A DNA stretch of 38,606 nucleotides from Deltaproteobacteria bacterium (GTDB lineage Bacteria; Desulfobacterota; RBG-13-43-22), in assembly GCA_016219225.1 (NCBI GenBank), contig JACRBX010000193.1:1-38606 (forward strand), in the 5' to 3' direction. Shown piece after piece: positions 7,130-26,082 of the stretch. Position 1 is the stretch's first letter, and each line of letters starts with the position of its first letter. Under the pieces are notes generated by a model. The model did not search any database, had not been told where the DNA came from, and saw nothing but the letters and a program-made list of their open reading frames with translations. A program made the position numbers and the translations under genes.

Positions 7130-8548
7130 TTAACGGGATATCCTTTCTATGATTTCCCCATCCGGCCCTAACAATTCAATAACCATCGGCATGGCCCCGA
7201 TAGCATGGGTGGAGCAGGAAAAACAGGGATCATAGGCCCGGATGGCCGCCTCGACCCGGTTTAACATGCCCTCGGTCAGTTTCTTTCCGTCGACGAAGGA
7301 TTTGGCCACCATTTCCACCGATTTGTTGATGGCCCAATTGTTATGCCCGGTAGCGACAATCAGATTGACCTTGGTCAGCATCCCGTTTTGATCGGTTTTA
7401 TAATGATGGAAAAGGGTCCCTCGAGGGGCCTCTAAACACCCCACTCCTTCGCCGGTCAAACCCTTGGAATCACCAACCAGATTGGTGGAGGTGACCTCGG
7501 GGTCCAGGAGGATTTCCTTGGCCCGCTCGATGGCATAAAGGTCTTCAATCAGGCGGGCGTAGTGATACCATAGCGTACCCTCCACCGGCTTGCCGTCGGA
7601 TAGGGCCTTGAAATTGGCGAATTCCTCATTGGCCAATGGGGTATTGATCCTTTCGGCCACATTCAGGCGGGCCAAGGGTCCGACCCGATAGGTGCCGGCC
7701 GGATAGCCCAGCTTGCGATAATAGGGAAATTTCAGATAAGACCAATTTTCAACATGCTCGGCAATATGCTCCAGATAATTTTTGGGATCGAATTCCTCCA
7801 GGGTCTTCCCGTTTTTATCCATTAACCTGAGCCTGCCGTCGTACAACTGCAAACCACCCTGCTCGTCGACCAGGCCCAGATAGCCCGAGGGGAAAACCGC
7901 AAATTTATCCACCAGTTCGCGGTTGGCCTCGAACCAGCCCTTGGCTACGGTGATGGCCAGTTTGATGGTCTCCATCACCTCGTCGATCCGGCTCAAGAAA
8001 TCGTCACAATCTTCGGCCGAAAGAGGCCCATTGACCCCGCCGGGGATGGAATGGATGGGGTGGACCCTTTTACCCCCCAGCTTGCGGATGATTTCCTGAC
8101 CGAAGGCCCTGGACTGGACGGCCTTCAAAGCCAGCTCCGGATTGGCCTGGATGACCCCGACGACATTTCTTATAGCCGGGTCGGCATCGAACCCCAAAAG
8201 CATATCCGGTCCGGCCAATTCAAAGAAATGCATGGAGTGGGATTGAATAAACTGTCCCATATGCATCAGCTCTCGAAGAAGCCCGGCGGTTCGGGGAGGT
8301 GTCGCCCCGATCACCCGGTCACAGGCCTTGGCCGAGGCCAGATGATGGCTGACCGGACAAATGCCGCATATCCGGGGAGTGATTTGGAGCATCTCGAAAA
8401 AGGGCCGGCCTTCGGTGAACTTTTCAAACCCTCGAAATTCATTGACATGCATAAAGGCGTTTTCGACTTTCCCCTTGGCGCCCATATGGATGGTGACTTT
8501 GGCATGACCCTCTATCCGGGTTACCGGTTCTATGGTAATTTTTTGCAT
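7130..8548 (-). CDS. hydL: [NiFe] hydrogenase large subunit (HoxH/HydL type)
   Basis: This is a 472-residue catalytic subunit. The N-terminal nickel motif is [11 protein letters not shown] with Cys61 and Cys64; the C-terminal one is DPCFSCSTH with Cys442 and Cys445. All four nickel-binding positions are cysteine, so this subunit is not a selenoprotein. A 24-residue C-terminal extension after His448 is the peptide normally removed by a maturation protease, and such a protease is encoded at 18946. The start [10 protein letters not shown] is standard. Sequence and partners place it with the group 3 cytoplasmic, NAD(P)-linked enzymes. Start 8548 is chosen because AGGAGA precedes it by 7 bases; an ATG at 8569 would overlap the small-subunit gene. 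It is last in the operon. Confidence 0.92.
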
Positions 8549-8561
8549 TTTATCTTCTCCT

Positions 8562-9101
8562 CTAATCATACTTCAAGGTCTGATCCTTCAAGACCGGGAT
8601 TCGGCCTTCCAGCAGTTCACTGAGCACAATATGGATGGTCTCGGCCGAAGGAGGACAGCCGGGCAAATAAACATCGACTTTGACCACCTGATCCAAGGGG
8701 CGGGCAAAAATCGGTTTGGCCAATTCCTCCGATTGGGGTATTAAACCGTCTACGGTGCTTTCCGTCTCCACATAGGCCCGCTGCAGGGCATCCTCTATTG
8801 TAACCTGGTTCCGCATTAAAGGGATGCCCCCGAGAACCGAGCAATCCCCCAACGACACCAGAATCTGACAGCGCTCCCGCATTTCCCGGGCGACTTCCAG
8901 ATGGGCGGTGTTGTTGACCGTGCCGGTTAGAATCCCGACGGTGACGCCGTCTCTCGGCGGATGTTTTAAGTCGGTTATCGGGCATGATGTTATCTCTATC
9001 TTATCCAGTAATTGGACCAGCCTCTCGTCCATATCCAATAGGGACATATGGCATCCGGCACAAGCCGCCAGCCAATCGGTTGCAATCTTTATCTTCGCCA
9101 T
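8562..9101 (-). CDS. hydS: [NiFe] hydrogenase small subunit (HoxY/HydS type)
   Basis: The protein has 179 residues, the length of the short, single-cluster small subunits of group 3 hydrogenases. Ligands of the proximal [4Fe-4S] cluster are visible: Cys14 and Cys17 in CAGCH, Cys87 in GDCSVLGG and Cys149 in PGCPPS. There is no signal peptide and no second cluster domain, so it is cytoplasmic and must pass electrons directly to the NuoG-like subunit encoded just upstream. A strong GGGGGAG site precedes the ATG. It ends 13 bases before the large-subunit ATG. Confidence 0.92.
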   Translation of the reverse strand: MAKIKIATDWLAACAGCHMSLLDMDERLVQLLDKIEITSCPITDLKHPPRDGVTVGILTGTVNNTAHLEVAREMRERCQILVSLGDCSVLGGIPLMRNQVTIEDALQRAYVETESTVDGLIPQSEELAKPIFARPLDQVVKVDVYLPGCPPSAETIHIVLSELLEGRIPVLKDQTLKYD

Positions 9102-9120
9102 AAGTCTTTCTCCCCCCCTT

Positions 9121-10179
9121 CTACATTCGGGCGGCCAATTGGGTTAATACTTCATTTTCCGGAATCAAGCCCTCGGGCAAGGGTACGGCCTTCCGGACCG
9201 CCACCTTTTTACCTTCCAGGTTATAGAGCGACCCTTCGTGCTCATACCAGAGCAGGGCCGGTAAAACGACGTCGGCCACCTCGGTAATCGGACCGTGAAA
9301 GCTGGCCTGGACGGTCAAAAACCTGGCTTCCCGGGCCTGTTTGACCTTCTCTTCTGAAAGGGTGGTCTCTTCCAGGAGAAGATAGACCGCCTCCATTTGA
9401 GCTGGAGCAAAAGTCGCTCGAAGCCCCAAGGCCTTGGCATGGAAGCCATTGCTTTCCGGGAACAAGGGGATAAAATGGGCCTTCTTTTGCAATGTGGCCA
9501 GCCTTTCCGCCTGCTGGGGAGGGGTTTCCTCACCATAAAGCACAACCGGCGCGGCACTGTCCTGACAAAATTTAATGGCGCGGCCCATTTCATTCAGGGG
9601 AAAGGTTTTATGGGCAAACCGCCTCATCGCATGGTTGTTGTCGGAAACAATGACCAATCGGGCCCCTTTCATGCAGGCCCGCTTAATGTGATAGCCGATG
9701 ACCGGATGATCGGACAGGGGATCGGCACCCGTGACCAGGATCGTATCCGCAGAAAGCAAATCATTGAGGGACCCCCCCAATGGCAGATTAAACCTGGCCA
9801 GGGTCGGCTCCAAAACACCCACGTTGGCCCGGATCTTCCCCAGGAATACGGCCACAAATTCACTCAAGGTCAGGTTAAGGGTCCGGCAGGTGGTCCAGGC
9901 CCCGACCTTGTTATGCGGACTGGCCTTGATCGCCCTGGCAACAGTATCCAGGGCCTCCCCCCAGGTGGCCGGCTCCATCCGGCCATCTTTACGGATTAAG
10001 GGGGTTTCAATGCGCCGGCGCTTTTCCTTGAAGGGCTGAAAGCGGCCCTTGACGCAGAGCACGCCGTTATTGTGTTCCTCCCATTCCCCTTCGACCCTTA
10101 AGACCCGTCCGGCCCTGGTAATGATCTCCGTACCACAACCCACGCTACAGAACAGACAAACGCTTTTGGTCCTCTCCAC
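9121..10179 (-). CDS. NuoG/FdhA-like C-terminal half (split HydA)
   Basis: This 352-residue protein starts at a GTG and carries the molybdopterin-oxidoreductase [4Fe-4S] motif with Cys8, Cys11, Cys15 and Cys42 (CLFCSVGC, then GVLCVKGR). The fold typical of the FdhA/NuoG central domain follows (ILVTGADPLSDHPVIGYHIKRA at about 145-166). It is much shorter than true formate dehydrogenases and has no catalytic cysteine or selenocysteine, so it is probably a structural, electron-relay version as in NuoG. It is in the same frame as the upstream gene (10198-10839) and separated only by a TAG at 10198-10200. The intervening codons still encode a linker-like AGRESQ. No good ribosome binding site precedes the GTG. 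Together the two would make a 572-residue NuoG-like HydA. Confidence 0.8.
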   Translation of the reverse strand: MERTKSVCLFCSVGCGTEIITRAGRVLRVEGEWEEHNNGVLCVKGRFQPFKEKRRRIETPLIRKDGRMEPATWGEALDTVARAIKASPHNKVGAWTTCRTLNLTLSEFVAVFLGKIRANVGVLEPTLARFNLPLGGSLNDLLSADTILVTGADPLSDHPVIGYHIKRACMKGARLVIVSDNNHAMRRFAHKTFPLNEMGRAIKFCQDSAAPVVLYGEETPPQQAERLATLQKKAHFIPLFPESNGFHAKALGLRATFAPAQMEAVYLLLEETTLSEEKVKQAREARFLTVQASFHGPITEVADVVLPALLWYEHEGSLYNLEGKKVAVRKAVPLPEGLIPENEVLTQLAARM

Positions 10180-10197
10180 CTGGGATTCCCGTCCGGC

Positions 10198-10839
10198 CTA
10201 GGCGCTCTGACGGTCGATCAAGGCCCCGGTGGGACAGATCTGCAGGCAAGTGCCGCAGGTAACACAGGAGGATTCTCCAAAGGGAACGTCGCCGTCGGCG
10301 CAAATCCGGGTCTTGGCCCCGCGGTAGATGACCCCCAGGGTATTGTTGGCCGCCAGTTCGTTGCAGGCCCGGATGCAGCGCCGACAGAGGATACAACGGT
10401 TATGATCCATGATGAAATGTTCCCGTGTGCCGTCAACCGGCTTGGCCTCACCGGGATTCGGATAAATCCAGTGATCCAGTCCGTAGCGGTAGGCCAGGGC
10501 CTGTAATTCGCAATCTCCGCTGGATTCGCAAAATGGGCAGTAGTGGTTTCCTTCGGAGAAAAGCATTCCCAGAAGGAACTTTCTCTCTTCAACGACCTTG
10601 GGTGATTCGGTCTCCACCCGCATGCCTTCGGATACGGGAAAGGTGCAGGCCGGTTGAAGACCCCGTTGTCTCTCGATTTCAACCAGACAGATCCGGCAGG
10701 CCCCCAGGGGGGTAACCGAAGGATGATGGCACAGACTGGGGATATCGATACCGGCCCCCTTGGCCGCCTCCATAACGGTCTGTCCGGCCCGGGCCCGGAT
10801 GTGACGTCCATTGATTTTTATATTCACAACCTTATCCAT
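10198..10839 (-). CDS. NuoG/HoxU-like iron-sulfur subunit (N-terminal half of split HydA)
   Basis: This 213-residue electron-transfer protein carries four cluster motifs in order. A plant-type [2Fe-2S] site has Cys37, Cys48, Cys51 and Cys65. A His-Cys3 [4Fe-4S] site has His99, Cys101, Cys104 and Cys110. A two-cluster ferredoxin domain has Cys149/152/155/159 and Cys192/195/198/202. This is the layout of HoxU and of the N-terminus of NuoG and of [FeFe]-HydA. It should connect the NuoF flavin subunit with HydS. GGAGG lies 9-10 bases before the ATG. The frame ends in TAG and continues as the molybdopterin-like half in the same frame. Confidence 0.88.
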   Translation of the reverse strand: MDKVVNIKINGRHIRARAGQTVMEAAKGAGIDIPSLCHHPSVTPLGACRICLVEIERQRGLQPACTFPVSEGMRVETESPKVVEERKFLLGMLFSEGNHYCPFCESSGDCELQALAYRYGLDHWIYPNPGEAKPVDGTREHFIMDHNRCILCRRCIRACNELAANNTLGVIYRGAKTRICADGDVPFGESSCVTCGTCLQICPTGALIDRQSA

Positions 10840-10888
10840 TAGAAAAACCTCCTTTATAGCGATCCGGAAATCGGAGAGTCCCTTTTAC

Positions 10889-13800
10889 TCAGGCCGAGGC
10901 CACGGCCCTTTGCTGAATCGGGGTCAAAAGTCCCATCGATTTTAACCATTCCAGATCGCATCGCAGACAGCGTTTACACTCTTCTCGAGCGATTTGTTCA
11001 TCGAAACCGGCTTCCACCTCTTCAAAGCATTGAACGCTTTTCTCCTCGGACAGACGCCTGACCACCGGGCGATTGGCCTCGGCATAATCCTCCGGTGAAT
11101 AAAGTTGCGGGATTTCCCGGCAGAGGGAGGCGAACTTGATCCGCTCCACCGGTTGTCCTTTCAGATAGGCATCCACGGTTACGGCCACCTTATTCCCCTG
11201 ATCAACGGCCTCGATAACCGTGGCCGGTCCCAGAGTGACATCGCCGGCGGCAAATACCCCCGGGCGGGTGGTCATCAGATTCGCCCCCACCTGGATGGTG
11301 CTGTCGGCTTTCACCTCAATCTTTCCCTCTCCCCCGAGGCCTCCCAAATCCGAGGCCTGCCCGATGGCGGCGATAAAGATATCGGCATCCAGGATGAATT
11401 CGGGTACCTCAAACTCGGTGGCCTCGATCGGTATGGGGCGCCGGCGGCCGCCGGCATCAAACTCGCCGAGTCGCTGTAAATGGCATTCCACGCCGGTCAC
11501 CTGTTCGGGACCGAGGATACCCACCGGGTTGGTCAGGAAATGAAATTGAATCCCTTCCCGGAAGGCCTCCACGATCTCCTCTTTCCAGGCCGGCATGTCT
11601 TGACGGGTGCGGCGATAGAGGATATGCACCCTTTTGGCCCCCAGGCGCAGAGCGGTCCGGGCAGCGTCAATGGCCACGGCCCCCCCCCCGACCACGGCCA
11701 CTCTCTTTCCCTTGATCTCCGGCGGTTTTCCCAGGGCCACGTTTTTCAGGAATTCGATCCCCTGATAGACCCCGGGCAGGTCTTCCCCGGGTATGCCCAG
11801 ACGCCGGCCCTTATGGGCCCCAAGGGCCAGGACCACGGCACTATAGCCGCTTTGGTCCAGCAGGCCGTCAACCGTGAAATCCTTCCCCATCTCCTGGCCC
11901 AGTCTGATTTCCACTCCGGCCCGTTTAATGGCCTCGATTTCCATATTTAAGATGTTTCGCGGCAAACGGTATTCCGGAATACCCACGGCCATCATGCCCC
12001 CGGCCACCGGCAGTTTATCAAAAACCGTCACCGGATAGCCCCGTTGGGCCAGCCGCAGGGCCGCGGTCAAACCGGCCGGGCCGGTCCCGATGATCGCCAC
12101 CTTTTCCTTTTTGGGACCTTCCAGCTTCGGGGGGGTCCAGGGTTTTTCCATTTCATGATCGGCCATGAGCCGTTTGGCCAAACGGATGGCAACCGGATCA
12201 TCAATATCGCCGCGCCGGCATTTTTGCTCGCAAAAGGCCGGACAAACCCGGCCGCAGATCAGGGCAAAGGGGTTTCTTTCCCGATGGATCTCCAGGCCCT
12301 CAGCATAATTACCCTGGGCGATCAGGGCGATAAACGAAGGGACGTCAACCTGGGCCGGACAGGCATTGGTACAACGGGCTCGGACCAGAGTCTTGCAGGA
12401 GCCGGCCGGACACTCGCCGTCGAGGATATGGGTCAAAAATTCCTCTTCAAAATATTTCAAGGCCGACATGACCGGCCCGGGAGTCAATTGCCCTAAGGCG
12501 CACAGGGAGCCGGTTTCCATACCCTTGGCGATCTGCTTTATGGTTTCGATATCTTCCAGTCTGCCCTGGCCTTCGGTAATCCGGGTCAGTATTTCCAACA
12601 TCCGCTTTCCACCCACCCGGCAGGGGATACATTTCCCGCAGGATTCGGCCTGAGCGAACTTCAGAAAAAATTTGGAAAACTCCACCATGCAGGTATCTTC
12701 GTCCACCACGATCATACCGCCCGAGCCCATGACCGCACCCACTTCCTGGAGGGAATCAAAATCCACTTCCACATTGAGGTGCTGCGGCGGGATGCACCCC
12801 CCCAGGGGGCCTCCGGTCTGAACGGCCTTAAATCGCTTGTCTTTGAGAATCCCTCCGCCGATATCGAAAATAATTTCTCCCAGCGTAATTCCCATAGGCA
12901 CTTCAACCAGACCGGTATTATTAACCTTTCCGGTCAAGGCAAAAATGGCTGTTCCCGGGCTTCGTTTAGTGCCGATATTATTAAACCAATTCGATCCGTT
13001 GACCATAATTTGGGGGACATTGGCATAACTTTTGACATTGTTCAAGTTGGTCGGCTTCCCCCAGAGACCGGAAGCGGCCGGAAAAGGGGGACGGGGGCGG
13101 GGTTCGCCGCGCCGGCCTTCGATAGAGGCCAATAGGGCGGTTTCTTCCCCACAGACAAAGGCCCCGGCCCCTTCCTTAATATGCAGTTGGAAAGAAAAGT
13201 CGGTGTTAAGGATATTATCGCCCAGCAGACCGTACTCCTCAGCCTGGGCGATGGCCACGTTGAGACGCTTAATGGCCAAGGGGTATTCGGCCCGGCAATA
13301 GATGGTCCCTTCCCTGGCCCCCACCGCATAGGCGCAAATGGTCATGCCTTCGATCAGACTATGGGGATCGCCTTCCAAAAGAGAGCGGTCCATAAAGGCC
13401 CCGGGGTCCCCTTCATCGGCATTGCAAACCACATATTTGACATCCCCCGGGGCCTTAAAGGTAAACTCCCATTTGGTACCGGTGGAAAACCCGGCCCCTC
13501 CACGTCCCCTTAAGCCGGAGCGTTTGACCTCCTGGATGACTTCCTCCCGGGTCATATCGAATAAGGCCTTTGACAGCCCTTCATACCCGCCCCGGACAAT
13601 ATATTCCTCAATCTTTTCGGGGTCGATCATCCCGCAGTTGCGCAGGGTGATTCGAACCTGTTTGCTGTAAAAAGGTATATCCTGATACCGGGGAAGTTCC
13701 TTATAGGTCTCGGGGGCCTTATAGGTTAAACGACCGACCACCCGGCCTTTGACCAGGGTCTCCTCGACAATGGTCTGAACATCCCTGGGCTGCACCTGAC

Positions 13801-14008
13801 AATAAAAAATCCCTTCAGGGTAGATGACCATGATCGGTCCCATGGCACAAAAGCCGCGGCACCCGGTTGGTACGACCCGGACCTCCTTATCCAAACCCCG
13901 GCGGGAAATCTCCTTGTTTAATCCGGTAATGACCTCCGGGGACTCCGAGGCCGTGCACCCCGTTCCGCCACAGACCAGAACATTGGCCCGATAAAAAGGC
14001 TCAGCCAT
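10889..14008 (-). CDS. NuoF-GltD fusion, flavin subunit of the hydrogenase (HydB-like)
   Basis: This 1,039-residue protein has three parts. Residues 1-95 are a thioredoxin-like [2Fe-2S] domain with Cys13, Cys18, Cys50 and Cys54. Residues 110-530 are NuoF: the FMN/NADH motif GLRGRGGAGF at 166-174, and a [4Fe-4S] site with Cys457, 460, 463 and 503. Where HydB proteins continue with CPAG-CK and a two-cluster ferredoxin domain, this one switches at about residue 540 to a GltD/SudB-like module. That module has an N-terminal cysteine-rich region (Cys546, 550, 585, 589, 593, 597), FAD motif GTGPAG at 641, NAD(P)H motif GGGAVAIDAAR at 774, GDV at 922 and a final CKRCLRC at 1011. It probably oxidises or reduces NAD(H), with the second flavin site possibly serving NADP(H). 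GGAGG precedes the ATG. Confidence 0.9.
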   Translation of the reverse strand: MAEPFYRANVLVCGGTGCTASESPEVITGLNKEISRRGLDKEVRVVPTGCRGFCAMGPIMVIYPEGIFYCQVQPRDVQTIVEETLVKGRVVGRLTYKAPETYKELPRYQDIPFYSKQVRITLRNCGMIDPEKIEEYIVRGGYEGLSKALFDMTREEVIQEVKRSGLRGRGGAGFSTGTKWEFTFKAPGDVKYVVCNADEGDPGAFMDRSLLEGDPHSLIEGMTICAYAVGAREGTIYCRAEYPLAIKRLNVAIAQAEEYGLLGDNILNTDFSFQLHIKEGAGAFVCGEETALLASIEGRRGEPRPRPPFPAASGLWGKPTNLNNVKSYANVPQIMVNGSNWFNNIGTKRSPGTAIFALTGKVNNTGLVEVPMGITLGEIIFDIGGGILKDKRFKAVQTGGPLGGCIPPQHLNVEVDFDSLQEVGAVMGSGGMIVVDEDTCMVEFSKFFLKFAQAESCGKCIPCRVGGKRMLEILTRITEGQGRLEDIETIKQIAKGMETGSLCALGQLTPGPVMSALKYFEEEFLTHILDGECPAGSCKTLVRARCTNACPAQVDVPSFIALIAQGNYAEGLEIHRERNPFALICGRVCPAFCEQKCRRGDIDDPVAIRLAKRLMADHEMEKPWTPPKLEGPKKEKVAIIGTGPAGLTAALRLAQRGYPVTVFDKLPVAGGMMAVGIPEYRLPRNILNMEIEAIKRAGVEIRLGQEMGKDFTVDGLLDQSGYSAVVLALGAHKGRRLGIPGEDLPGVYQGIEFLKNVALGKPPEIKGKRVAVVGGGAVAIDAARTALRLGAKRVHILYRRTRQDMPAWKEEIVEAFREGIQFHFLTNPVGILGPEQVTGVECHLQRLGEFDAGGRRRPIPIEATEFEVPEFILDADIFIAAIGQASDLGGLGGEGKIEVKADSTIQVGANLMTTRPGVFAAGDVTLGPATVIEAVDQGNKVAVTVDAYLKGQPVERIKFASLCREIPQLYSPEDYAEANRPVVRRLSEEKSVQCFEEVEAGFDEQIAREECKRCLRCDLEWLKSMGLLTPIQQRAVASA

Positions 14009-14110
14009 ATCTGCCTCCTGCTTCCTAATTTAATGTTTTTATATTCTTAAATTGATTGATCTTAAACGTTACGGCTTACTGGGTCTGGTTCTATAGCTCC
14101 CGGTTAAACG

Positions 14111-14181
14111 AGTACCCAGCAACCAGTAACCAGTAACGAGCAACCAGCAACGAGCAACGAGTAACGAGTAACGAGTAACGA
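14111..14181. repeat. Degenerate word tract (AACCAGT / AACGAGT type)
   Basis: About ten 7-base units AACCAGT, AACCAGC, AACGAGC and AACGAGT run in tandem between the ferredoxin gene and the NuoF-GltD gene. Confidence 0.8.
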
Positions 14182-14187
14182 ATCTTC

Positions 14188-14568
14188 TCAGGTTTTTTGC
14201 GCTTCCATGCGACTGACGGCCCATTCCTGAATCACCTGACCTCGGATCAGATGCTCCTCGATTAAGCGCGGCACCTTTTCCTGGGTGATATTACCGTAAC
14301 GAACCCTGGATTTGCCCGCCTGTTCCACATCGACCAGGGGTTCTTTGGCGCACATCCCGACACATCCGACCGTTTCCACATGGGCCTCGATCTTTCGGTT
14401 GTCCAATTCCTTTAATACGGCTTGCATAACCTCCCTGGCCCCGGCGGCGATGCCGCAGGTCCCCATACCGATAATGATCCGGGTCCCGGTCTGAACCCTG
14501 GACATCAAATCTTTCCGGGCCTCATCACGGATCTTTTTCAGCTCTTCAACACTCTTGAGTTTTGTCAT
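14188..14568 (-). CDS. Thioredoxin-like [2Fe-2S] ferredoxin (HndB type)
   Basis: This 126-residue protein aligns by eye with the small ferredoxin found between the HATPase and hydB genes in many bifurcating-hydrogenase operons (HndB of Desulfovibrio). Conserved blocks are TRIIIGMGTCGIAAGAREVM and VGCVGMCAKEPLVDV. Only three cysteines occur in the cluster region (Cys38, Cys69, Cys73); the second of the usual four is absent, so cluster binding may need another ligand or be lost. The N-terminal 25 residues are a charged helix. GGAGG lies 7 bases before the ATG. It is expected to be a soluble accessory subunit. Confidence 0.8.
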   Translation of the reverse strand: MTKLKSVEELKKIRDEARKDLMSRVQTGTRIIIGMGTCGIAAGAREVMQAVLKELDNRKIEAHVETVGCVGMCAKEPLVDVEQAGKSRVRYGNITQEKVPRLIEEHLIRGQVIQEWAVSRMEAQKT

Positions 14569-14610
14569 CTATTTTCCTCCTGGTTCATCCGCCGAATGCT
14601 TTTTTCCCCT

Positions 14611-15180
14611 TTAAGCCCCAACCCTGGCCGGCAAGGCCCTTATGGAAAGGCCGTTTTCCGCCTCGGCCCAAAAACCCATCAGCCATTTCCGGACCTTGGG
14701 GTGGGTCAAGGGTATCTCCATCAGTTCCTTTTGAATTTCAGAGGAGTCCAGCCGGAATTCCTCTTCATCGACCCGGTGGATATACAGCCAATCCAGCGGG
14801 GGTTCGGACAAAAGCAGGGCCAGCAGGACCGAAGTCATATCCCCTAAAGGGGCCCGGTCGACATGGCTGTGACGAAAGGTGCCCCTGATCGTCGTTCCGG
14901 CTCCCGGTAGGGAGCGGATTTCCAAAGCCCCCTCGCACCTGCGGCAGGCCTCGGACAATAAGGGAAGCCCCAGGCCTACGTGGCGCGTTTTCCTGGTGGT
15001 ATAAAAAGGATCCAGGACCCTGGCCGTCTGTTCTTCGGAAAGCCCTCGCCCATTATCCTTGATTTCAATCCGCAAAAGGTCGGCCTGCAAATCCTCATCG
15101 ATTCTTATCTCAATTTTAGAGGCACTGGCCTCAATCGAGTTTTGGATCATGTCCAATAGATGGAGAGATAATTCGATCAA
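14611..15180 (-). CDS. HATPase-domain protein of the hydrogenase operon
   Basis: The protein has 189 residues. Residues 1-105 form a GHKL ATP-binding domain: N box DMIQNSIEAS (10-19), G1 box DNGRGL (42-47), and a G2-like TTRKTRHVGLGLPLL. A C-terminal part of about 80 residues has no motif I know. There is no dimerisation/phosphoacceptor domain, so it is not a standard histidine kinase; it resembles anti-sigma-factor or serine-kinase-like ATPases. The same gene sits between nuoE-like and ferredoxin genes in many HydABC operons, where its job is unsettled. The start is a TTG at 15178-15180, five bases after the NuoE stop, with AAGGAG inside the NuoE end. Confidence 0.8.
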   Translation of the reverse strand: MIELSLHLLDMIQNSIEASASKIEIRIDEDLQADLLRIEIKDNGRGLSEEQTARVLDPFYTTRKTRHVGLGLPLLSEACRRCEGALEIRSLPGAGTTIRGTFRHSHVDRAPLGDMTSVLLALLLSEPPLDWLYIHRVDEEEFRLDSSEIQKELMEIPLTHPKVRKWLMGFWAEAENGLSIRALPARVGA

Positions 15181-15185
15181 GGTCC

Positions 15186-15653
15186 TTAAGTCTCCTTTAA
15201 AATCTGGGCCATTTTTTCAGGGACCAAACGGCCTACGACCTTGTTGTCGACTACGGCCACCGGGGCCAGCCCGCAGGCCCCCAGGCAGTAAACGACCTCA
15301 AAGGTATATTGATAATCCGGGGTGGTTTCCCCGGCCTGAATACCCAATTCATTCTGAATCGTATCCACAATCCTCCCGGCCCCCCGGACGTGGCAGGCCG
15401 TTCCGTCACATTGCCGAATAATCGTTTTTCCCCGGCGGGTCAGATAAAATTGAGAATAAAAGGTGGCTACTCCGTAAATCTGACTCAAAGGGGTGCCCGT
15501 CTTTTCCGCTATCCGGCCCAGGGCTTCAGACGGAAGATAACCATAAAGATCCTGGGTTTTCTGTAAAATCGGGATCAAGGTCCCCTGCCTCCCATTGAAT
15601 TCGTCGATGATTTTATCGAGAGGTTCTAATTCGATAGTCTCCGAATGGGTCAT
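15186..15653 (-). CDS. NuoE-like [2Fe-2S] subunit (HydC/HndA type)
   Basis: This 155-residue protein is a full-length NuoE/24-kDa homologue. The helical N-terminus (LIPILQKTQDLYGYLPSEAL, then IYGVATFYSQF) precedes a thioredoxin-like domain whose four cysteines are all present: Cys82 and Cys87 in CDGTACHVRG, Cys123 and Cys127 in YCLGACGLAP. It should hold one [2Fe-2S] cluster and dock to the NuoF part of the fusion protein. An excellent GGAGGG site lies 5-6 bases before the ATG. Confidence 0.92.
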   Translation of the reverse strand: MTHSETIELEPLDKIIDEFNGRQGTLIPILQKTQDLYGYLPSEALGRIAEKTGTPLSQIYGVATFYSQFYLTRRGKTIIRQCDGTACHVRGAGRIVDTIQNELGIQAGETTPDYQYTFEVVYCLGACGLAPVAVVDNKVVGRLVPEKMAQILKET

Positions 15654-22070: not shown

Positions 22071-22106
22071 GTGGAAAGGCGCCTTCGCCTGTTATTAATG
22101 GTTTTC

Positions 22107-22135
22107 TCCGAACTCCGAACTCTTAACTCCGAACT
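22107..22135. repeat. Degenerate word tract (CTCCGAA type)
   Basis: Tandem CTCCGAACTCCGAACTCTTA and CTCCGAAC words lie just past the end of the flavoprotein gene. Confidence 0.65.
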
Positions 22136-22146
22136 TTTTTCCCATG

Positions 22147-23523
22147 CTAAACATTCACACCACTCCCAACTTTTCTCTTCAACAAATTGGCCGCTATCAG
22201 CAAAGGGTCCCAAACCGGACTGTATGGGGGCGCATAGGCCAGATCCAACCGGGAGATCTCTTCCAGGGTCATTCCCTGGTAGAGGGCCACAGCCAGGGTA
22301 TTGATCTTGCGGGCCTCTCCGTCCCAGCCCACCCAATTTCCTCCGAGGATCCGGCCGGTCGCCTGATCGGCCACGATTTTTAAAAGGGAAGTTTTTGCCC
22401 CGGGATAGAAGCTGACCCGGGAAGAACCTTCGACCACCTGGCTGACTACCGAAAAACCGATCTTCTTGGCCCGGTCTTCATTGATTCCGGCCATACCGAT
22501 TTCCAGGCCGAAGACCTTGACGCAGGCTGCCCCGATGATTCCATGAAATTCCACCTGGCCACCCACGGCATTTTCTCCCGCCACCCTGCCCTCTTTATTG
22601 GCTATATCCCCCAGAGGGGCCAGGACCGGTTGCCCGGTCACCCGGTTGAGTTTTTCACAACAATCTCCGGCGGTAAAAATATCAGGATCATTGGTCTCCA
22701 TGCGGCTGTTGGCCTCGATCCCGCCGGATGGGCCAATGTGGATCCCGGCCTCGCGGGCCATTTCCGAATTGGGCATAACGCCTACTCCGACAAAAAAAAG
22801 ATCGGCCGGGAAGGTCCCCTGATCGGTCACTAAATGATTGGCCCGCTGCCCATCGCCTTCGAAGGACCTTGGTTGGATCTGACCAAGGTAGCGGACGCCA
22901 TGATCTTCCAGTTCCTTAACGATGATCGGCCCCACCTCCGGTTCCAATCCGCCGTAGGGGAATCGGCCCCGGTAGAGAAGGGTTGTTTCGATTCCCCTTT
23001 CCCGTAAGGCCTCGGCCATTTCCAGGGAGATATAGCCGGCGCCGATAATCACCGCCCGGCGTGGCCTTACCTCATCCAGAAAATTTCGGATCCGAATCCC
23101 ATCGGACATTTCTTTTAAAGTGAAAATATTTGGGGCCCTTTCCCCCGGGATTCCCAACCATCGGGAACGGGCCCCAGTGGCCAGAATCAGGCGGTCGTAA
23201 GGCAGTAAAAATTCCTCTCCCCTTTCCAGGACGGCAACCCGGACCTCTTTCCGGGCCCGGTCAATGGCCAGAACCTGGTGCCTGAGTTTGACCTCTATTT
23301 GCTGTTTGGTCCGAAATTCTTCCGGAGACCTGGCAATCAATTCCTTATGGTCATGGATTACATCCCCGATGTAATAGGGAAGTTCTCAGGCCCCATAGGA
23401 AACAAACTCCCCTTGCTCCAACAGGGTAATGGCAGCATCAGGATCCTTTCTCCGGGCCGTGCTGGCCGCCGTCGGTCCGGCCGCCGATCCCCCAACGATA
23501 ACCAGATTGAGTCTATCAGCCAA
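22147..23523 (-). CDS. Selenocysteine-containing CoA-disulfide-reductase/NADH-oxidase-type flavoprotein
   Basis: Read through one in-frame TGA (23386-23388), this is a 458-residue pyridine-nucleotide disulfide oxidoreductase. It has N-terminal FAD motif VIVGGSAAGPTAAS (8-21), LILATGARSRWLGIPGE, NAD motif AVIIGAGYISLEMAEAL, FTAGDCCE, and family ending DLAYAPPYSPVWDPLLIAAN. The TGA is codon 46 in SYGA-stop-ELPYYIG, exactly where relatives have the single active-site cysteine (NCGLPYYIG). A hairpin starts 10 bases later. The start is TTG 23521-23523: AGGAGG lies 9 bases upstream, and an in-frame TAG lies just before. If selenocysteine is inserted the enzyme would reduce CoA-disulfide, persulfide, polysulfide or O2 with NAD(P)H. 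The alternative is a nonsense-mutated cysteine codon. Confidence 0.82.
23357..23375 (-). promoter_or_regulatory. Candidate bacterial SECIS hairpin
   Basis: In the mRNA, AUUACAUC and GAUGUAAU form a perfect 8-bp stem with loop GGG (or 7 bp with loop CGGGG). The loop begins 18 bases after the UGA of codon 46, and a G is at its start. Spacing and loop fit the bacterial SECIS rule of about 16-37 bases between UGA and apical loop. Confidence 0.7.
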
Positions 23524-23555
23524 CCGCTACCACCTCCTCACCACGAAAATAGAGT

Positions 23556-23632
23556 TTTGAGTTCGGAGTTCGGAGTAAATTATTTTCATGTTCTGTGTTG
23601 CCCCTCTCACTCCGAACTCCAAACTCCGAACT
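23556..23632 (+). repeat. Word tracts (TTCGGAG / CTCCGAA) around conserved tail element, site 5
   Basis: GAGTTCGGAGTTCGGAGTAA leads into TATTTTCATGTTCTGTGTTG and CCCCT (23581-23605), followed by CTCCGAACTCCAAACTCCGA words in the opposite sense. It lies between the flavoprotein and deacetylase genes. Confidence 0.65.
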
Positions 23633-23682
23633 ATTTCTTCACATACCCTGCCGGGATCTCAAAGGTTTCATTTTTCCTCCTC

Positions 23683-26015: not shown

Positions 26016-26082
26016 TTAGTTCGGAGTTGAGACTTTGAACTATTAGACTTTTACTCCGAACTCCAGATTCATCACTCCAAAC
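26016..26082. repeat. Degenerate word tract (TTCGGAG / CTCCGAA type)
   Basis: Words such as AGTTCGGAGTTGAGACTTTG, ACTCCGAACTCCAGATTCAT and CACTCCAAACT fill most of the gap between tolC and ctpA. Confidence 0.6.

Follow-up and report, generated by a model that had tools for sequence, protein, structure and literature searches.

Predicted selenocysteine as the catalytic residue of a CoA-disulfide-reductase-like flavoenzyme, and a large new branch of a known selenoprotein family

A flavin enzyme encoded in the DNA analyzed here, a stretch of 38,606 nucleotides referred to as the window, almost certainly carries selenocysteine (Sec) as its catalytic residue. Judged from sequence and predicted fold, the gene product is very probably a homodimeric reductase of the CoA-disulfide or CoA-persulfide type that depends on NAD(P)H and FAD and in which Sec has replaced the single catalytic Cys. 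The sequence-only reading of this DNA had proposed Sec at the active site of a flavoprotein of the CoA-disulfide reductase (CoADR) or NADH-oxidase type, and the family assignment, the codon alignment across homologs, the covariation in the SECIS hairpin, and the Sec machinery of the source genome strongly support that proposal.

The gene lies on the minus strand at 22147-23523 and runs from a TTG start codon (23521-23523) to a TAG that ends at 22147, encoding 458 residues when its one in-frame TGA is read through. This TGA (23386-23388, minus strand) is codon 46, in the protein context SYGA-U-ELPYYIG, and aligns with the catalytic Cys of CoADR. A Shine-Dalgarno-like AGGAGG (23533-23538, minus strand) is located 9 nt 5' of the TTG, and an in-frame TAG occurs two codons 5' of the start. 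The nearest relative (L077) also uses TTG at the same place, while other relatives mostly use ATG. Comparison of 41 codons of the pre-TGA segment with four relatives indicated that most differences were third-position changes (for example, 5 first-position, 1 second-position, and 21 third-position differences). By this substitution pattern the segment 5' of the TGA is coding, and the earlier description of a full-length flavoprotein frame interrupted once, with a coding upstream part and its own ribosome-binding site and start, agrees with what we observed.

Pfam searches of the window protein returned Pyr_redox_2 (198 bits), Pyr_redox, and Pyr_redox_dim, and the FAD, NAD(P)H, and dimerization domains were all full length. 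The best NCBIfam model was TIGR03385, CoA-disulfide reductase, at 404 bits; as this is below the equivalog cut-off of 578.8, we describe the protein as CoADR-like, with its exact function and substrate uncertified. The AlphaFold model had a mean pLDDT of 94.9, and Foldseek matched it to the CoADR structure 6ruz with TM scores of 0.93/0.96 and an rmsd of 1.2, and also to 6pfz, an NADH-dependent persulfide reductase (Npsr). The nearest solved relatives were the Thermus CoADR (6ruz) and the A. fulgidus Npsr (6pfz), with NADH peroxidase and oxidase ranking behind them. In the alignment, residue 46 falls on the one catalytic Cys of the solved CoADR and Npsr enzymes, which is C48 in P. horikoshii CoADR, where it has been mutated (PMC6026696), and which lies next to FAD in Npsr (PMC7969121). 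The CoADRs of P. horikoshii and Thermus (5l1n, 4fx9, 6ruz) share the length, domains, fold, and catalytic position of the window protein and likewise have no rhodanese domain; they differ in carrying Cys where the window protein carries Sec, and the window protein scores below the TIGR03385 cut-off. Npsr (3nta, 6pfz; PMC7969121) shares the fold and the catalytic position, and by analogy its chemistry is probably alike, but it has a C-terminal rhodanese domain. Pfam detected no such domain (PF00581) in the 458-aa window protein, and a separate Cys paralog in the same genome (L155) has one, so the work is probably split between the two enzymes.

In the mechanism that we propose from the family, SelB and Sec-tRNA would bind the hairpin loop during translation and place Sec at UGA 46, and NADH would reduce the FAD. 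The U46 selenolate, predicted to lie at the N-terminus of a helix by the flavin, would attack a CoA disulfide, a CoA persulfide, or a polysulfide to give Sec-Se-S-CoA (or Se-S-S), and reduced FAD (FADH2) would then cleave the Se-S bond. The likely role is thiol or sulfane-sulfur homeostasis in an anaerobe, with Sec perhaps selected for speed or for resistance to over-oxidation. A further Cys, at position 289 and following the GDC motif, was present in 34 of 37 clade A proteins (the clade of the window gene, described below), whereas the same position was Ala in 37 of 44 others; this Cys is a candidate resolving thiol specific to that clade.

Among the alternatives, the one that survives best accepts Sec and proposes that the enzyme is mainly an NADH peroxidase or oxidase working through a selenenic acid (Se-OH) cycle, instead of reducing CoA disulfides or CoA persulfides. 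The enterococcal NADH peroxidase (1npx) and the lactic-acid-bacterial NADH oxidase (5er0) indeed have the same fold and the same single redox Cys position, a thioredoxin-reductase-like gene precedes the CoADR gene in one group of relatives, and in two relatives a Sec-containing AhpC peroxiredoxin gene occurs upstream of the Sec-CoADR gene, at distances of 1.3 and 5.6 kb. Because of these nearby peroxiredoxin genes, a peroxide-related role keeps a modest share of the probability. Both 1npx and 5er0 are nevertheless clearly further from the window protein in sequence and structure, with CoADR and Npsr well ahead, and Tyr430 of the YAPP motif was invariant in 68 aligned homologs. We take this residue to be the equivalent of Tyr419 in SaCoADR. 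Overall, we regard a primarily peroxidase or oxidase function as unlikely and favor the reductase of CoA disulfides or persulfides.

Less probable still is the idea that the UGA serves as a selenium-dependent switch, such that only a 45-residue peptide is made without selenium and the downstream 397-aa ORF is non-functional. This is a general property of UGA-Sec codons, and a restart at the TTG at 23340 could be envisaged; a 397-aa product would, however, have neither the FAD-binding GGSAAG motif nor the catalytic residue, and such a switch would be a consequence of Sec coding and not an alternative to it. The same 397-aa ORF (22147-23340, minus strand) was the only one reported for the locus in the mechanical ORF list. 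As anticipated in the sequence-only reading, it is the standard gene-caller product, truncated after the TGA and left without Sec or the N-terminal part that binds FAD. Since public annotation cuts such genes after the UGA so that the active site is lost, the use of Sec in CoADR-like enzymes is underestimated.

To return to Sec itself, a sample of 395 genomes from the phylum yielded 80 further homologs, 81 with the window gene. At the codon aligned with window codon 46, 53 of the 81 genes (window included) carried TGA, 28 carried TGC or TGT, and none carried any other codon. The 53 TGA genes came from 52 genomes spread over much of the phylum, and their frames were otherwise intact, with none of the scattered stops that would have spoken for decay. 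Within the class, five of five genomes had the gene carrying one TGA, at 69-76% protein identity, and a scan of genome contigs recovered only two close relatives, both with the TGA.

The hairpin that follows the TGA in the window is a bacterial SECIS-type stem of 8 bp with a GGG loop (23357-23375, minus strand), its perfectly paired arms being ATTACATC (23375-23368) and GATGTAAT (23364-23357) on either side of the loop (23367-23365). The stem starts 10 nt 3' of the TGA, as first described, and the loop starts 18 nt after it. When the window codons were shuffled synonymously, an equally good stem arose in 1.7% of cases. We extended this comparison to every gene, taking the 66 nt after the codon, seeking the best stem whose loop has a G within its first two positions, and comparing it with 300 synonymous recodings per gene. 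All 53 TGA genes had a stem (p≤0.05 in 51 and p≤0.1 in 53), versus p≤0.05 in only one of the 28 Cys genes.

Among 28 genes of the window clade, 98.7% of stem cells were paired, and changes on both sides occurred at three pairs: U-A, C-G, and U-G were all seen at pair 15/31, with further compensatory changes at pairs 16/30 and 18/28. Shifting the partner strand in this alignment abolished the pairing and covariation signal. In coding terms, the third position of a Tyr codon covaries with the first position of an Ile/Val codon six codons downstream, a pattern that selection on the protein alone would not explain. A second large clade places its stem 4 nt further 3' and shows compensatory changes there too. 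Free-energy folding of the isolated 48-nt window RNA instead favored a competing hairpin (-9.3 kcal/mol) over the 8-bp stem (-5.2 kcal/mol alone and -5.7 kcal/mol with one further pair), and thermodynamic folding was dropped as proof of a SECIS; the support for the element is comparative, not thermodynamic. The 5' arm of the competing hairpin is formed by nt 5-10 after the UGA, and these nucleotides should sit within the ribosome. Taken as a comparative result, the predicted SECIS hairpin adjoining the UGA is under selection.

The source genome encodes SelA (628 bits), SelB (390 bits), and a SelD (394 bits) that has its own UGA, at U18, after the N-terminus MIDDHPVNLVNGARAAGU. The sequence-only reading had named the absence of Sec machinery as grounds for abandoning the proposal, and of the four genes it listed, selA, selB, and selD were found, while selC was recovered only as a 3' half. 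This half tRNA-Sec (L157, contig C145 of the source genome G000, 145-220) lies near the contig start, is broken exactly at the anticodon loop, and is near-identical to the sequence in sister genomes. No intact tRNA-Sec was recovered from the 353-contig assembly by the Rfam family search, two patterns, or a 23-nt 5' probe derived from the sisters, and an intact copy is present in each of the four sister genomes (74-78 bits). The missing intact selC most likely reflects an assembly gap, and the half copy looks like either a duplicated end produced when an element integrated into selC or the effect of a break in the assembly. More widely, selA was found in every genome at least 90% complete that has a Sec gene, with two exceptions: no selA was found in G071 and G271, which are 98-99% complete and whose CoADR genes (L128 and L129) carry TGA as the catalytic codon together with a perfectly paired stem, CGTATCT-GGTC-AGATACG. 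Either a divergent route of Sec synthesis or something else may operate in these two genomes.

The half tRNA-Sec of the source assembly and the two TGA relatives lacking a detected selA are the observations that would fit a reading of the UGA as another amino acid, such as Trp or Cys, with no Sec involved. That reading is highly improbable given the selected hairpin, Cys as the sole alternative residue at this position, the selA, selB, and Sec-containing selD of the source genome, and the intact selC of its four sisters. Finally, errors often account for a lone in-frame stop in metagenomic assemblies, and gene callers would truncate the gene there, but a miscall or a mutation in a dead or truncated gene can be dismissed here, as the same TGA is conserved in 53 genes of 52 genomes with intact frames, third-position-biased substitutions 5' of it, and a selected hairpin 3' of it.

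A quick maximum-likelihood tree was used to follow the history of Sec at the catalytic site. Clade A, which is starred and includes the window gene, contained 33 Sec and 4 Cys genes, clade B contained 16 Sec and 2 Cys genes, and two small Sec groups fell among Cys genes. At least eight changes between Sec and Cys are needed on this tree, five of them forced by starred branches, and parsimony cannot tell gains from losses. A single clade of all Sec genes was ruled out (AU p 4.6e-87). Uniting clades A and B in one Sec clade was not rejected (AU p 0.169), and we therefore do not claim an independent origin of Sec in these two clades. The distance of the SECIS loop from the UGA differed by group, being 18 nt in the window clade and 22, 21, and 20/27 nt in the others, which fits either several gains or shifts in register. 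The Cys genes of clade A were nested among Sec genes; one of them (L100) has a broken stem and belongs to a genome without selA, while the genomes of the other three (L118, L134, L152) retain selA. These patterns are evidence that Sec was gained or lost several times at the CoADR catalytic site. We lean toward a history in which there were several independent conversions of Cys to Sec, each accompanied by a newly evolved SECIS (+18 in the window clade, and +22, +21, and +20/+27), and Sec was then lost at least twice within the window clade, once in a genome that had lost selA.

The protein had initially been labeled a probable new selenoprotein, with a doubt about its novelty, and the doubt proved right. 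A Sec form was predicted as an 'NADH oxidase' selenoprotein by Zhang et al. in 2006, with one in Geobacter metallireducens (PMC1794560); one GOS sequence (PRK09564) was listed as a family selenoprotein in 2008 (PMC2398784); a 2022 review included 'FAD-dependent oxidoreductase (CoA-disulfide reductase, NADH oxidase)' (PMC9312934); and a 2026 review gave the TIGR03385 CoA-disulfide reductase selenoprotein with the motif UGxP (PMC13188914). The literature searched contained no experimental proof of Sec in the CoADR-like family. The G. metallireducens protein (WP_011365774.1; TIGR03385) is Deltaproteobacterial, belongs to the same family, and shows xxP after its Sec, as is found at the redox Cys of the family, but its motif is UGxP whereas that of the window branch is UELP, a comparison made by published motif, with the G. 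metallireducens gene outside our tree. The window clade has the motif UxxP, with UG in none of its 33 Sec genes, and the UG genes of the present sample belong to other clades, in which the distance from UGA to loop is different. As the window clade never has UG and uses its own SECIS register, it represents a large branch that is new within an already known selenoprotein family, and not a new family. The earlier reports covered one genome and one marine read, compared with 53 genes in the 395-genome sample here. This distribution suggests that thiol or sulfane-sulfur reduction may be selenium-dependent in many anaerobic Desulfobacterota-type bacteria. With close Sec and Cys forms in one tree and SECIS elements in varied registers, the family forms a natural series well suited to measuring the benefit of Sec over Cys and to studying how SECIS elements arise.

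Clustering of neighboring ORFs at 61 loci found no common conserved operon partner, only local synteny; within the genus, genes that we named by reading as S41-peptidase-like and polysaccharide-deacetylase-like lie upstream and a radical-SAM-like gene lies downstream. The thioredoxin-reductase-like gene was seen upstream of the CoADR gene at L097, L106, L114, L118, L126, and L134 (Pfam on L126 only). The AhpC-type peroxiredoxin genes, each with an in-frame TGA at the peroxidatic Cys (TFVUPTE), were located at 4711-5419 of L088 (oriented), about 1.3 kb upstream of the CoADR gene, and at 353-1061 of L083, close to the Sec-CoADR gene. In the window, ACTCCGA heptamers are repeated in intergenic DNA on both sides of the gene (22105-22136, 23559-23576, 23609-23633, and 26017-26063), in direct and inverted orientation, with 10 matches versus 0.45 expected, and are possibly an interspersed repeat element. 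Elsewhere in the window, reading of the ORFs at 7130-15653 indicated a putative operon resembling an NAD-coupled [NiFe] hydrogenase, with large and small subunits and NuoE/F/G-like subunits, including a 1039-aa NuoF fused to a glutamate-synthase-like flavoprotein.
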